A DNA stretch of 64,000 nucleotides. Origin: Herminiimonas contaminans (GTDB lineage Bacteria > Pseudomonadota > Gammaproteobacteria > Burkholderiales > Burkholderiaceae_D). The notes under the pieces are model-generated. The model had not been told where the DNA came from, made no database searches, and saw only the letters and a list, made by a program, of their open reading frames with translations. The position numbers were made by a program, and so were the translations under genes. Within the stretch, counting starts at the first letter, position 1. The number at the start of each line of letters is the position of its first letter. The stretch lies in NCBI RefSeq assembly GCF_015645465.1, contig NZ_JADOEL010000007.1, positions 62,001 through 126,000 on the forward strand. The letters run 5' to 3'. Positions 36,479 through 62,800 of this stretch are shown in pieces.

Positions 36479-37009
36479 ATGACCAAATCGAGCAAGACCC
36501 CAACTGCGGCATCCTCAGATAAACCTGCATTCCTCGTCAGAAATTCACCGGTACACGGCCGCGGTGTTTTCGCGACACGCAATATCAAGGCTGATTCGAT
36601 GCTGCTGGAGTATGAAGGCGAGCGCATCAGCGACAAGGAAGCACTCAAGCGTCACGGCACTGATCCGGAAAATCCGTACCACACCTTTTTCTTCAGCCTC
36701 GAAAGCGGAAAAATGATCGATGGTGGTGCAGACGGCAGCGATGCGCGCTGGATCAACCACGCTTGCGAACCTAACTGCGAAGCACGCGAAGAAAAAGGGC
36801 GCGTCTTTATCTACACACTGCGCGATATCAAACGCGGAGAAGAATTCAATTACGACTACGGCCTGATCGTCGAAGACCGTCAGACCAAGGCTTTGAAAAA
36901 AGCTTACGAATGCCGTTGTGGCGCGGAAAGCTGCCGCGGCACCATGCTGGCGCCGAAAGAAAAGAAATCCGGCAAGAAGAAAAAGAAGAGCAAAAAGAAA
37001 GACAAATAA
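36479..37009 (+). CDS. SET-domain protein lysine methyltransferase with lysine-rich tail
   Basis: A 176-residue bacterial SET-domain protein. SAM-dependent methyltransferase motifs are complete: HGRGVFA (residues 26-32), the pseudoknot strand INHACEPNCEA (92-102), EEFNYDYG with the likely catalytic Tyr127, and a post-SET cysteine triad CRCGAESC (Cys145, 147, 152) that could bind zinc with the cysteine of the NHACEPNC segment. The last 17 residues are almost all lysine, an arrangement that could bind nucleic acid or mimic its own substrate. Targets of such enzymes in betaproteobacteria are unknown. It stands alone and ends at a strong terminator. Confidence 0.9.
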   Translation: MTKSSKTPTAASSDKPAFLVRNSPVHGRGVFATRNIKADSMLLEYEGERISDKEALKRHGTDPENPYHTFFFSLESGKMIDGGADGSDARWINHACEPNCEAREEKGRVFIYTLRDIKRGEEFNYDYGLIVEDRQTKALKKAYECRCGAESCRGTMLAPKEKKSGKKKKKSKKKDK

Positions 37010-37054: not shown

Positions 37055-37369
37055 TTAGCTGAAGTACTTCAGACCGGCGATGCCGGAAACAATCAGCATG
37101 ATGCAGAGTATGCGCACCACGGTGACCGCGTCACCCAGCAGGATCATGCCGAGGATGACCGTGCCAACGGTACCGATACCGGTCCAGACTGCATAAGCAG
37201 TTCCTACCGGCAGCGTTTTCATCGCCACGCCCAGCAAGGCGACACTGATCACCATCGCCAGTACCGTACCAACGGTAGGCCAGAGCCGGGTAAAGCCCTC
37301 GGTGTATTTCAGGCCGATCGCCCAGCCAATTTCAAACAAACCCGCAATAACCAGAATAGTCCAAGACAT
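37055..37369 (-). CDS. gdx: Guanidinium exporter (SMR family, SugE/Gdx)
   Basis: A 104-residue four-helix small multidrug resistance protein. Glu13 in the first helix ([12 protein letters not shown]) is the universally conserved proton/substrate-binding residue, and the [14 protein letters not shown] continuation is typical of the SugE/Gdx subgroup, not the EmrE subgroup. Gdx proteins work as antiparallel dimers that expel guanidinium in exchange for protons. The guanidine-II riboswitch in its leader independently supports the guanidinium substrate. Confidence 0.93.
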
Positions 37370-37390
37370 AGTGCTACTTCCTATAGTGTC

Positions 37391-37434
37391 GAGGCCGTCC
37401 TCAATTGATGATGGAGCGGTGGGGTCGTCCCCAC
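37391..37434 (-). ncRNA. Guanidine-II (mini-ykkC) riboswitch
   Basis: On the minus strand, 22 bases or more before the gdx start, are two short hairpins with ACGR tetraloops: GUGGGG-ACGA-CCCCAC (37434-37419) and GAGG-ACGG-CCUC (37402-37391), joined by a 16-base linker. Paired ACGR-loop hairpins define the mini-ykkC class, in which guanidinium makes the two loops dock and frees the ribosome binding site downstream. The purine-rich AGGAAG near 37377-37384 is the ribosome binding site. Everything matches: class, order, spacing and downstream gene. Confidence 0.9.
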
Positions 37435-37728
37435 TTCCTTATATGTAACGGCCCGGCACCTGAACCAGGTAGCGGCACCTGCAACGATGCAACAAACGGG
37501 ATCGTTTTGAATCAGCCAGCGGATATTAGCAAATTTTTTAAAAGTGCACCGGATGCGAAAAATGCGTTTCGGCTAGTGAAATGATGGGGGGCTGACATAT
37601 CTAGGAGGCTTTTAGCCCGCGGAACGCTACAAAGATAGAGACAGTATGTGAGCAGTTACTGTGATTTAGAGAAAGGCTGTAAGGGACTTTAGAGGCAAAA
37701 AGTTGCCATATATGAATATTCTATAACT

Positions 37729-37847
37729 GATATCAGAAAAGGAAAGTGGCCTCCAGGCGCGCCCATCCATATACTTCAGTTGTCTCCTCTATGTCTCCTC
37801 CTTTGATATAGATTTAGCCCGCCACCTGCGCGGGCTTTTTTTTTGCC
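37729..37847 (+). ncRNA. Candidate small RNA gene, copy 1 of a tandem pair
   Basis: A 119-bp unit repeated 217 bp downstream. It contains a conserved upstream block GATATCAGAAAAGGAAAGT (37729-37747), a -10-like TATACT (37770-37775), then two GUCUCCUC motifs (37782-37789 and 37793-37800), and a Rho-independent terminator (AGCCCGC 37816-37822 with GCGGGCT 37830-37836, nine T to 37844). The predicted transcript runs from about 37781 to 37844, roughly 64 nt. CUCCUCC is complementary to a Shine-Dalgarno sequence, so it probably acts by pairing with mRNA ribosome binding sites. No -35 box is obvious. Confidence 0.75.
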
Positions 37848-37945
37848 CAAGAATAAGCGATCTGCCAACTTCTCGCAATTTCTTGCAGCACTTCACTGAC
37901 ATATCAAAATAGCTATTTTCATTGTTATTCGCATTGTGAATATCG

Positions 37946-38066
37946 GATATCAGAAAAGGAAAGTAGCCTGCAAGCACAGCCATCCATATACTTCAGTTGT
38001 CTCCTCTATGTCTCCTCCTTTGATATAGATTCAGCCCGCCTTCTTTGAGCGGGCTTTTTTTTTGCC
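37946..38066 (+). ncRNA. Candidate small RNA gene, copy 2 of a tandem pair
   Basis: The second unit has the same upstream block (37946-37964), TATACT (37987-37992), the two GUCUCCUC motifs (37999-38006 and 38010-38017) and a terminator (AGCCCGC 38033-38039 with GCGGGCT 38049-38055, nine T). The region from CCATCCA before the -10 to the start of the terminator stem is nearly identical to copy 1. The terminator loop differs (CTTCTTTGA against CACCTGC) and so does the spacer just upstream of the -10, which shows what selection keeps. Predicted transcript about 37998-38063. Confidence 0.75.
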
Positions 38067-38104
38067 TGTCGTTCGCGCAAGTCCCAGCGGGCCTGGCTTA
38101 CACC

Positions 38105-38674
38105 CTATTTCTTCCCCTTGTAGCAAAAGCAGTCGACCGTGTGATCGTCGACCATGCCTATCGCCTGCATATATGCATACATAATTGTCGATCCGACAAA
38201 CTTGAACCCGCGTTTCGCCAGATCCTTGGACAATTGATCCGATATAGCCGTCTTTACCGGCGCATCCTTGATGGTTGCCCAACGGTTTTTGATTGGCTTG
38301 CCACCCACATATGCCCACAGATAAGGATCCAGGCCGCCGACTTCGTCGCGCAGGCGCAGATATGCCTTTGCATTGCCTATGGTGGCAGCAACCTTGAGCT
38401 TGTTGCGAATAATGCCCGGATTGGCCAGTAACTCTGCAACCTTCTTGTCATCGTAGCGTGCGATTTTCTCCGCATCCCACTGGTCGAAGGCAGCACGATA
38501 ACTTTCGCGCTTGTTCAGTACGGTCAGCCAGCTGAGACCGGCTTGCGCACCTTCGAGGTTCAGCATTTCAAACAGGCGGGTTTCATCATGGCAGGGTATG
38601 CCCCACTCTTCGTCGTGGTAAGCCACATAAAGCGGACTGTCGAGATTGACCCAGCTGCAACGTGTACGTGTCAT
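38105..38674 (-). CDS. tag: DNA-3-methyladenine glycosylase I
   Basis: A 189-residue Tag protein that removes 3-methyladenine from alkylated DNA, leaving an abasic site. The zinc 'snap' residues are in place: Cys6 and His20 at the N-terminus (RCSWVN, AYHDEEWG) and His178 and Cys182 at the C-terminus (DDHTVDCFC), with the same His-to-Cys spacing as the E. coli enzyme. The helix-hairpin-helix-like region and ALL of the core (EMLNLEGAQAGLSW) are normal. It is probably transcribed alone. Confidence 0.95.
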   Translation of the reverse strand: MTRTRCSWVNLDSPLYVAYHDEEWGIPCHDETRLFEMLNLEGAQAGLSWLTVLNKRESYRAAFDQWDAEKIARYDDKKVAELLANPGIIRNKLKVAATIGNAKAYLRLRDEVGGLDPYLWAYVGGKPIKNRWATIKDAPVKTAISDQLSKDLAKRGFKFVGSTIMYAYMQAIGMVDDHTVDCFCYKGKK

Positions 38675-59858: not shown

Positions 59859-62800
59859 CAATGTTTCTCCGTACCCAGTTGCTCTGCAGGCTTGGCTACG
59901 TCATGCGCATCGTGATGCGTCATCCCGCGCGCCTTGCGCATCATGCGCTTCAGCCAGTGCTCCAGATCATCGATATAAGTAAACACCGCAGGCACCACCA
60001 GCAGACTCAACAGCGTCGACGTAATCAAACCACCGATCACGGTAATCGCCATCGGCGAGCGGAAGCTGGGATCGGCACCCCAGCCCAGCGCCAGCGGCAT
60101 CATGCCTGCACCCATCGCGATCGTCGTCATGATAATCGGACGACTACGCTTATGACAGGCGTCAACCAATGCATCGAAGCGATTCATCCCTTGCTGGCGC
60201 GCCATGATGGCGTAGTCGACCAGCAGAATCGAGTTCTTGGTCACGATACCCATCAGCATGATCAGGCCGATCATCGACGGCATCGATAAGGCACGGCCAG
60301 TGATCAGCAGCGCGACAAAAGCACCACCGATGGAAAGTGGCAGGGCAGCCAGAATCGTGATCGGTTGCATGAAGTCCTTGAACAGCAGAACCAGCACGCA
60401 GTAGATACACAAGACACCAATCGCCATCGCCAGGCCAAAGCTGTTGAACAACAGCATCATCTCTTGTGCATCACCCAGTTCCGCGATCTTCACCGCAGGC
60501 GGCAAATTGCGCATGGATGGCAAGGCACGTGCTTCGGTATTCAATTCGCCCAACGAGCGTGAACCGAGTTCCACATCCAGCGTGACGTTACGGCTGCGAT
60601 TCAGCCTATCGATCTGCGCCGGACCGCTATCCATATAGACAGACGCCACATTACCCAGCATCACCGGGCCATTGCGGCCTGGTACTGTCAGGCGCTCGAT
60701 TGCAGCCAGGTCGGCACGCATATTGTCCGGCAACTTGACGCGTATCGGCACCTGGCGTTCGGACAGATTCATCTTCGGTAGATTCATATCATAATCACCG
60801 GCCGTCGCCACGCGCACTGTTTCACCGATGGCTGAGGTAGTCACGCCGAGATCACCGGCACGTGCCGGATCCGGACGCACGATGATTTCCGGACGCACCA
60901 GCGAGGCGCTGGAAGTCACATTACCTATGCCTTTCAGGCCACGCAGTTCACGTTCCACTTTCTTCGCTGCTTCCGACAAGGCCAATGGATCTTCACTGCG
61001 CAAGACCAGTTGCATCTTGACGCCGGTATCCGGTGTGCCGACAGTAAAACGTGCACCAGGAATGTTCGCTATGCGCTCACGTATCTTGGCTTCGATATCC
61101 GAGATCTTTTCCTTGCGCTCGCTGCGATGTACGGTCGTCAGCGTCATCACGGCACGACGTGCTTCCGCCGATGCGCCCGGTGCAAATGCATCACCGCTGG
61201 AACCGCCACCTATCGAGCTGAAAATGCTGATGATGTTTTTATCCTGCGCCACCGCCAGACGTACCCGCTCGGTGACCGCCATCGTTTCCTTCAGCGTACT
61301 ACCCGGCGGCAATTCAATATTGATTTGCGTCTGTGCACGATCAGTAGGCGGCACGAAGCCGGTCGGCAGCAAAGGCACCAGCATGATGGAACCGATAAAA
61401 AACACACCGGAAGCAATCGCGGTTTTCAGGCGGTTGGTCAGACACCAGCGCATTACTTTGATGTAACGCTGCATCAGCCAGCCATCTTCCTGCTCTTTGT
61501 GCTTCTTCGGCTTCAGGATGTAAGCCGCCATCATAGGTGTCAGCAATCGTGCGACGACCAGCGAGGCCAGTACCGCCAGCACCGCTGTCCAGCCAAACTG
61601 CTTGAAGAACAGACCCGGAATACCCGCCATGAATGCAGTCGGCAGGAACACGGCAACCAGTGCAAAGGTCGTCGCGATCACCGCCATACCAATTTCATCA
61701 GCGGCTTCCATCGCTGCCTGCATAGGCGTCTTGCCCATGCTCAGGTGGCGTTCGATATTTTCAATTTCCACAATCGCATCATCGACCAGCACACCCACCA
61801 CCAGCGCCAGCGATAGCAGGGTCACCATATTCAGCGTGTAGCCGAAGTAAGCAAGGCCGAGGAAAGTCGGGATCACGGATAAAGGCAAAGCGGCAGATGC
61901 CACCAGCGTCGCACGCCAGTCACGCAGGAACCACCACACCACCAGCACAGCCAGCAATGCGCCTTCGTACAGCAAGGACATGGAACCATCAAAGTCTTCC
62001 TTGATCGGCTTGGCGTTATCGATGGCTTCCTTGAAGACGATATTGCTATTGTTCTTTTGCAGTTCGGCTACCGCTTCTTTCGCGCCTTTGGCGACAGCCA
62101 GTTCACTCGCGCCCTTGGTACGGAATACTTCGAAACCGACCACAGTCCGGCCATCCTGCGATGCCGAGGTACGGCGCTCAGCGATGGTATCCGTCACGGT
62201 TGCCACCTGCTCCAGGCGGATGTGATGACCATCGGTCAGCGGGATATCCATCTTCGACAATTCGGCAGCGGTCTTCACGGTCGCGATGGTACGCACTGCT
62301 TGCTCCGCACCACTGACATCGCCACGTCCACCCGGTGCTTCCTGCTGTACCTGACGCAAACGACGCGAGACATCAACCGCCGCCACATTCAGCGCTGACA
62401 TCTTGGCCGGATCAAGTTCTATCCGGACTTCACGCGTCACGCCGCCGACACGTTTGACCGAACCGACACCAGGCACCGCCAGCAAACGTTTGGAGACCGT
62501 GTTGTCCACGAACCAGCTGAGTTCCTGTTCATCGACGAAGCTGCCCGGAGCAGCTGCTGCGGTGAAGGTAGTGATCACTCGTCCGGCGGTAGATACCTTG
62601 GTAACCGACGGATCGCGCAAATCGGCAGGCATGTCTGCACGTACCAATGCGACTGCATCGCGCACATCATTGACTGCGTCTGAAATATTTTTTTCCAGGA
62701 TGAACTCCACCGTCACGGTGACCGTGCCGTCGAGTACCTTGGTATAGATATTTTTAATGCCTTGCAGCGTTGCAACCGAGTTCTCTATCTTGCGCGCCAC

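Follow-up and report, generated by a model that had tools for sequence, protein, structure and literature searches.

Between a SET-domain protein gene and the tag gene on a contig of Herminiimonas contaminans lie two nearly identical short units in tandem, which raises the question of what they encode, how their products might act and why two of them stand side by side. All coordinates below refer to the window, the whole stretch of 64,000 nucleotides that was analysed (positions 62,001 to 126,000 of contig NZ_JADOEL010000007.1), unless a genome and contig are named.

Architecture of the tandem locus

A repeat search within 37300-38500 revealed one direct-repeat family, comprising two units of 122 nt (37723-37844 and 37940-38061) on the plus strand with 85% identity and a start-to-start distance of 217 bp. 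The arrangement proposed by a sequence-only reading of this DNA, with a shared block, TATACT, paired motifs and a GC hairpin with nine T, is directly visible: the block GATATCAGAAAAGGAAAGT begins at 37729 in copy 1 and at 37946 in copy 2, and each unit contains UGUCUCCUC and UCUCCUCC followed by the GC hairpin and the nine T. As read by eye, each unit has its own upstream box, weak -35 element, 18-nt spacer and TATACT, preceding a predicted RNA of about 65 nt. Between the two predicted RNAs, the only differences are in the terminator loop and at one linker base. The features are as follows.

36479..37009, plus strand: SET-domain protein gene (PF00856), a neighbour outside the sRNA unit
37729..37751, plus strand: upstream box GATATCAGAAAAGGAAAGT and weak -35 (GTGGCC, 37746-37751) of copy 1, conserved in 26 units of 13 genomes
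37770..37775, plus strand: putative -10 box TATACT of copy 1, after an 18-nt spacer, consensus match by eye
37781..37843, plus strand: sRNA copy 1, RF02278 match (67.4 bits, fold z-score -4.9)
37781..37787, plus strand: single-stranded anti-Shine-Dalgarno tail UGUCUCC of copy 1, from the predicted structure
37788..37812, plus strand: hairpin 1 of copy 1 with loop UCCUCCUUU at 37796-37804, from the fold and compensatory changes
37816..37844, plus strand: intrinsic terminator of copy 1, from sequence and terminator scan
37946..37968, plus strand: upstream box and weak -35 (GTAGCC, 37963-37968) of copy 2, from sequence, alignment and box pattern
37987..37992, plus strand: putative -10 box TATACT of copy 2, from sequence and alignment
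37998..38062, plus strand: sRNA copy 2, RF02278 match (70.4 bits, fold z-score -5.4)
37998..38004, plus strand: anti-Shine-Dalgarno tail of copy 2, from the predicted structure
38005..38029, plus strand: hairpin 1 of copy 2 with loop at 38013-38021, from the predicted structure
38033..38055, plus strand: terminator hairpin of copy 2, then nine T, from sequence and fold
38105..38674, minus strand: tag, methyladenine DNA glycosylase gene (PF03352), a neighbour outside the sRNA unit

The terminator scan listed copy 1 and not copy 2, and a generic sigma-70 scan listed neither promoter of the pair (one site elsewhere versus 2.3 expected by shuffling); we attribute the missing promoter calls to the weakness of the -35 elements. 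Near the pair, a gene for a small multidrug resistance (SMR) protein (37055-37369, minus strand, PF00893) is found with a Guanidine-II riboswitch (RF01068, 45.3 bits, 37390-37436, minus strand) just upstream of it, and together (37055-37436) they look like a guanidine-export unit adjoining the pair.

Both units are members of the RF02278 family

Using the covariance models of Rfam release 15, both units were found to match RF02278 (Betaproteobacteria toxic sRNA) over model positions 1-64 of 64, with 67.4 bits for copy 1 (E 2e-11) and 70.4 bits for copy 2 (E 3.5e-12), against a gathering cut-off of 50 bits. Since both scores are well above this cut-off over the full model, the pair belongs to an already named sRNA family and a new-family reading was rejected. 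The supposition that no named family covers these units hence does not hold, and expression, toxicity and target work has been published on relatives; the finding is in this manner given a name and a mechanism to work with, and is placed beside published relatives. Other features of the family are present as well, namely two hairpins of which the second is the terminator, CU-rich unpaired anti-Shine-Dalgarno stretches and several copies per genome in Burkholderiales. The H. contaminans genome contains four matches at E <= 0.001, three of them above the cut-off, the other two residing on contig C2 (58.7 bits) and on contig C4 (41.7 bits, below the cut-off). The latter (L004, G000:C4:18819-18883) is a divergent fourth member with TCCTCCTCC in its 5' part and an altered hairpin loop.

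None of 200 shuffled sequences folds as well as either RNA, giving the z-scores of -4.9 and -5.4 listed above. The predicted fold consists of the unpaired UGUCUCC tail, a hairpin with the 9-nt loop UCCUCCUUU and the terminator hairpin. The 3' region of the H. contaminans 16S rRNA reads GGATCACCTCCTTTCTAGA (one match in the assembly), and therefore the loop shares CCUCCUUU with the ribosomal anti-Shine-Dalgarno. The family scores, the folds and the presence of the pair in all 13 genomes of the host genus searched show that the units are no product of chance and agree with the earlier view of small RNA genes, while the identity of the units and the predicted unpaired tail and loop bear out that they are siblings with anti-Shine-Dalgarno motifs.

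Conservation of the RNA and its promoter

Alignment of the 26 tandem units from 13 genomes showed that a 32-nt core, TGTCTCCTCTATGTCTCCTCCTTTGATATAGA, is invariant in 26/26, and it is also retained in 30 of the 49 distinct units overall. The -10 region is nearly invariant in this alignment, and the upstream region TATTCA...ATAtCtGATAT..GAAAnGGAAATTGG is strongly conserved, with little information left in the -35/-10 spacer and in the terminator loop. Selection on both the RNA and its promoter, as had been proposed, is borne out by this pattern of an invariant core with a drifting spacer and terminator loop. The accompanying claim, which confines divergence to the terminator loop and to the part preceding the -10 box, stands in essence for the 26 units, except that the upstream box is also variable in its final bases, reading AAATTGG in many units and AAAGTGG and AAAGTAG in H. 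contaminans.

Support for the fold comes from 46 distinct RNAs, obtained from the 49 distinct units by dropping one that was cut short and merging identical RNAs. At none of the 11 consensus pairs does any row show a non-standard combination, and changes on both sides occur at five of them (10-30, 12-28, 38-62, 42-58 and 43-57). The count leans towards structure, since the rows were chosen by a CU-motif pattern from the best-scoring loci and also served to derive the structure itself; by the same selection, divergent members such as L004 lie outside it. Hairpin 1 exists in the subtypes CUAU/AUAG, CCAU/AUGG, CCAC/GUGG and CCAA/UUGG, which keep the same fold with different letters.

The name 'toxic sRNA' might suggest one half of a toxin-antitoxin system or a coding element, the more so as the RNA contains a six-codon frame (AUG UCU CCU CCU UUG AUA UAG) in 30/49 distinct units. 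However, this frame is absent from the remaining 19/49, including the CCACC/GGUGG subtype, and no Shine-Dalgarno precedes it, on which ground the coding reading was rejected; the antisense frames adjoining the sites encode 20 and 34 aa, and it is frames of this size that the argument covers. Taken as a whole, such an explanation is hardly tenable.

As concerns the promoter, the box pattern GATATNNNAAANNGRAAKTNGC with at most one mismatch has two matches in the 4.04 Mb H. contaminans genome, both at the pair, and the reversed pattern has none in this genome. The box as a regulon motif was therefore rejected: its restriction to the pair means that no wider regulon was found in the H. contaminans genome and that no regulator can be named. 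We infer that the upstream box controls the pair.

Distribution of the family and origin of the pair

A survey of 100 genomes (H. contaminans and 99 relatives) at E <= 0.001 found RF02278 in 82, with scores above the cut-off in 68 and a single match in 27, whereas no match at this threshold was obtained in the other 18 genomes or in any of 14 control genomes. A degenerate core pattern retrieved 19 stretches of named records, assigned to Herminiimonas, Oxalicibacterium, Paucimonas and Lacisediminimonas or labelled only as Oxalobacteraceae, Burkholderiales or Proteobacteria. Units identical to the letter connect several genomes of the host genus with Herminiimonas or Oxalicibacterium records, among them G011 with Herminiimonas sp. 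KBW02, G010 with H. fonticola and G005 with O. faecigallinarum. The host thus groups with Herminiimonas/Oxalicibacterium, and as the NCBI family of both genera is Oxalobacteraceae, the family in which homologues had been expected, this expectation was justified.

The tandem pair is present in 13/13 host-genus genomes searched (H. contaminans included), with a distance of 206-228 bp. In the fetched stretches of about 3 kb per locus, homologues of tag, of the SET-domain gene and of a FAD-dependent oxidoreductase gene (HI0933-like) are located beside the pair in 13/13 and a homologue of the SMR gene in 9/13. Outside the genus, six distinct loci (L010, L011, L017, L019, L027 and L040) have one unit near a SET-domain gene, three of them (L017, L019 and L027) also with tag, and none of the four neighbour genes was seen at the remaining fetched single-unit loci; only the best-scoring loci were fetched, and the frequency of single copies at other places cannot be read from them. 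Judged from these neighbours, the six single copies look as if they occupy the same place as the pair.

In a tree of 26 tandem and four single units, copies cluster mostly by position and not by genome, with three position changes for copy 1 and two for copy 2, compared to means of about 10 after shuffling and none of 500 shuffles as low. With the six single copies at apparently the same place, the simplest reading would be that the locus was duplicated once, long ago, in the common ancestor of the genus Herminiimonas/Oxalicibacterium. Support is good for only 2 of the 27 inner branches, L006 and L007 have their copy 1 placed among copy 2, and the four rows from single-copy loci are scattered among both groups, so that a single duplication is not proven by this tree.

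The six outside-genus loci with one copy at apparently the same place, together with the near-identity of the two RNAs, could also be expected if one gene suffices and the second is a redundant relic retained by chance, a mere buffer of copy number. Against this, the core, the promoter box and the terminator are kept in both copies in 13/13 genomes with diverging flanks, and a relic would decay; we regard retention by chance as quite improbable. The reading we prefer for the second copy is a raised dosage, with near-identical RNAs placed behind similar, drifting promoters.

Several other arrangements of RF02278 matches were noticed. Five matches lie within about 15 kb in G017 (L068, G017:C113:124000-143000) and five within about 27 kb in G059 (L069 and L070, G059:C1, two stretches within 4176500-4206000); these two genomes are from one related genus, several neighbouring frames look common to both clusters, in which a simple pattern recovered no more than 2 and 3 units. 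The related genome G034 has 19 matches, G026 has three in tandem with 185-bp steps (G026:C1:961093-961529), and at L073 (G027:C2:416669-416950) two matches on opposite strands face each other with starts about 215 bp apart.

Candidate targets and proposed mode of action

Most of the above is accounted for if the pair encodes two independently transcribed, trans-acting RF02278 sRNAs of about 65 nt, which repress mRNAs for transport and catabolism at their ribosome binding sites and which arose by one duplication that raised their dosage, and we consider this very probable. The pair is presumably transcribed and presumably has such targets in H. contaminans, where it would repress many mRNAs. 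The UGUCUCC 5' tail and the loop UCCUCCUUU of each RNA would be exposed, mimicking the 16S anti-Shine-Dalgarno, and would pair with ribosome binding sites of mRNAs mostly concerned with transport and catabolism. Such pairing would block ribosome entry and thereby slow uptake and growth once nutrients run out. The local duplication in the Herminiimonas/Oxalicibacterium ancestor would have provided the higher dosage.

Target prediction with complements of the motifs, which had been suggested earlier, gave a mixed outcome. The 9-mer GAGGAGACA is perfectly complementary to the tail and two further bases. Besides the antisense of the pair itself, it precedes an ATG at 8 places in H. contaminans, and each of the eight starts a reading frame of 122-401 aa that matches a Pfam family (FAA hydrolase, DUF4197, TerC, BON, NMT1-like, Rieske/VanA_C, epoxide hydrolase and porin), several of these classes falling within the target classes described in the consulted part of PMC5688073. 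With a wider gap, 10 sites are found (two being the antisense of the pair) versus 6 for the reversed pattern; the corresponding counts for AAGGAGGAGA before ATG in H. contaminans are 2 versus 0, with unconvincing frames of 30 and 90 aa.

Across the 13 genomes, GAGGAGACA occurs before ATG 45 times, as compared to 18 for the permuted GAGGAGCAA and 40 for the permuted GAGGAGAAC, the counts for the reversed patterns being 8, 8 and 4, respectively. Perfect 9-nt sites are thus not clearly over-used relative to the two permuted 9-mers, and the identity of the targets is a prediction. Frames of at least 60 aa follow 31 of the 35 GAGGAGACA places examined (of 45) and 12 of 18 GAGGAGCAA places, no frames having been examined at the 40 GAGGAGAAC places. 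Recurrent among the 35 GAGGAGACA places are FAA hydrolase (5 genomes), porin (3) and five other proteins (2 each), in keeping with the target classes published for relatives. Duplex energies are circular, as the sites were chosen by their match to the tail, and the value of -52 kcal/mol for TerC ignores internal structure; they are not evidence.

The lack of a clear enrichment of perfect longer sites would also fit a general growth brake, whereby at high level the RNAs mainly compete with the 30S subunit for Shine-Dalgarno sequences at large instead of regulating chosen targets. The sharing of CCUCCUUU between the loop and the 16S tail is in line with this, as is the naming of RF02278 for growth inhibition in E. 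coli (PMC5688073, PMC4603805, as far as their consulted parts go). However, overexpressed NcS27 influences growth on certain substrates but leaves it unaffected on others, according to a passage of the review PMC10987360, and the Bordetella S17S had hardly any effect on E. coli BL21 in LB in the portion of PMC11722255 consulted. Moreover, the UGUCUCC tail, which is the same in 26/26 tandem units, extends beyond the 16S complement. A brake of this kind is accordingly unlikely, and repression of selected mRNAs is retained as the preferred mode of action.

Usage of GGAGACA, the perfect complement of the tail, before ATG was also compared with RF02278 copy number, taken relative to the permuted controls GGAGCAA and GGAGAAC. 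Spearman correlation is 0.47 over 100 genomes, 0.31 within the host family (60 genomes) and -0.003 in the other 40, versus 0.13 for the mutual ratio of the two control k-mers; the median ratio is 0.75 in the 18 genomes with no copy, 0.72 in the 27 with one and 1.32 in the 13 with seven or more. These statistics ignore phylogeny and base composition, and the copy numbers, from a search with a stricter filter, are lower bounds, so that the correlation is a lead only. It would be bold, and is in our judgement very doubtful, to suppose that RF02278 RNAs provide the cell with another anti-Shine-Dalgarno, to which ribosome binding sites across the genome have become adapted, with many-copy genomes preferring GGAGACA. 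If so, the tandem pair would mark a stage in a co-evolution of dosage and ribosome binding sites, and usage that tracks copy number would mean that an sRNA family shapes the translation signals of a genome.

Comparison with known systems

The RF02278 family as such is already known; no title or abstract among the open-licence papers searched dealt with the tandem pair in Herminiimonas/Oxalicibacterium, and the genus-wide tandem arrangement at one locus with a promoter box was not found in print in these searches. The addition made here is that the genus genomes searched all have the two copies in tandem, at one fixed locus and with a conserved promoter box. The pair offers a simple system in environmental bacteria, since both copies can be removed by one short deletion, in which to ask why such RNAs exist in multiples and what switches them on. 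CU-rich RNAs of the CcsR type from alphaproteobacteria, likewise named in the sequence-only reading, have a CU-rich loop and are cotranscribed with a protein gene.

Related RNAs are known from Burkholderia, where they are called "double-hairpin RNAs", from Herbaspirillum and, as S17, from Bordetella, by the consulted parts of PMC5688073, PMC7011215 and PMC11722255. The Burkholderia cenocepacia RNAs ncS03, ncS05, ncS27 and ncS62 (PMC5688073, PMC4603805) resemble the pair in belonging to RF02278, in their two hairpins, CU-rich anti-Shine-Dalgarno stretches, terminator and several copies, and in their shortness, with 57-67 nt for three of four; three of the four reportedly share an upstream motif. 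As far as the excerpts of PMC5688073 go, the Burkholderia members are not in tandem, whereas two of the four in H. contaminans are, as is the case across 13 genus genomes. Overexpression of ncS27 attenuates growth and its antisense raises it, and the predicted targets serve transport and the metabolism of carbohydrates, amino acids and aromatic compounds (PMC5688073, in part); NcS27 is placed in metabolic shutdown under nutrient deprivation (review PMC10987360, in part). Herbaspirillum seropedicae, with Hsnc059, Hsnc063, Hsnc086 and Hsnc107, has four RF02278 copies like H. contaminans, no tandem arrangement being mentioned for them there (PMC7011215, in part).

In Bordetella pertussis, the 5' region of S17 has 2 mismatches to bdhR1 of RF02278, S17 is Hfq-dependent, and S17S directly represses one target, a sigma-54 activator, in an RBS-directed manner (PMC11722255, in part). 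Its short form is processed from a transcript of about 190 nt for which that account gives no identifiable promoter of its own, in contrast to the promoter-like element at each copy of the pair. In the same account, S17S does not impair E. coli BL21 during exponential growth in LB, and hence not every member of the wider group is toxic.

The likeness to the Neisseria sibling sRNAs, drawn in the sequence-only reading, is likewise drawn in the consulted part of PMC5688073. NmsRA and NmsRB of Neisseria meningitidis are tandem siblings with anti-Shine-Dalgarno motifs that act on metabolic mRNAs, with targets such as prpB, prpC, gltA and sucC and a reported control by RelA, and slower growth of E. 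coli vanished on mutation of the anti-Shine-Dalgarno, by the authors' data not shown (PMC5362039, in part). These siblings are 70% identical versus 85% for the units of the pair, and the likeness concerns the features as described in that paper. Near-identical tandem sRNAs have a further precedent in the iron-related PrrF1 and PrrF2 of Pseudomonas aeruginosa, which lie 95 nt apart and resemble the pair in arrangement (PMC6321483, in part).
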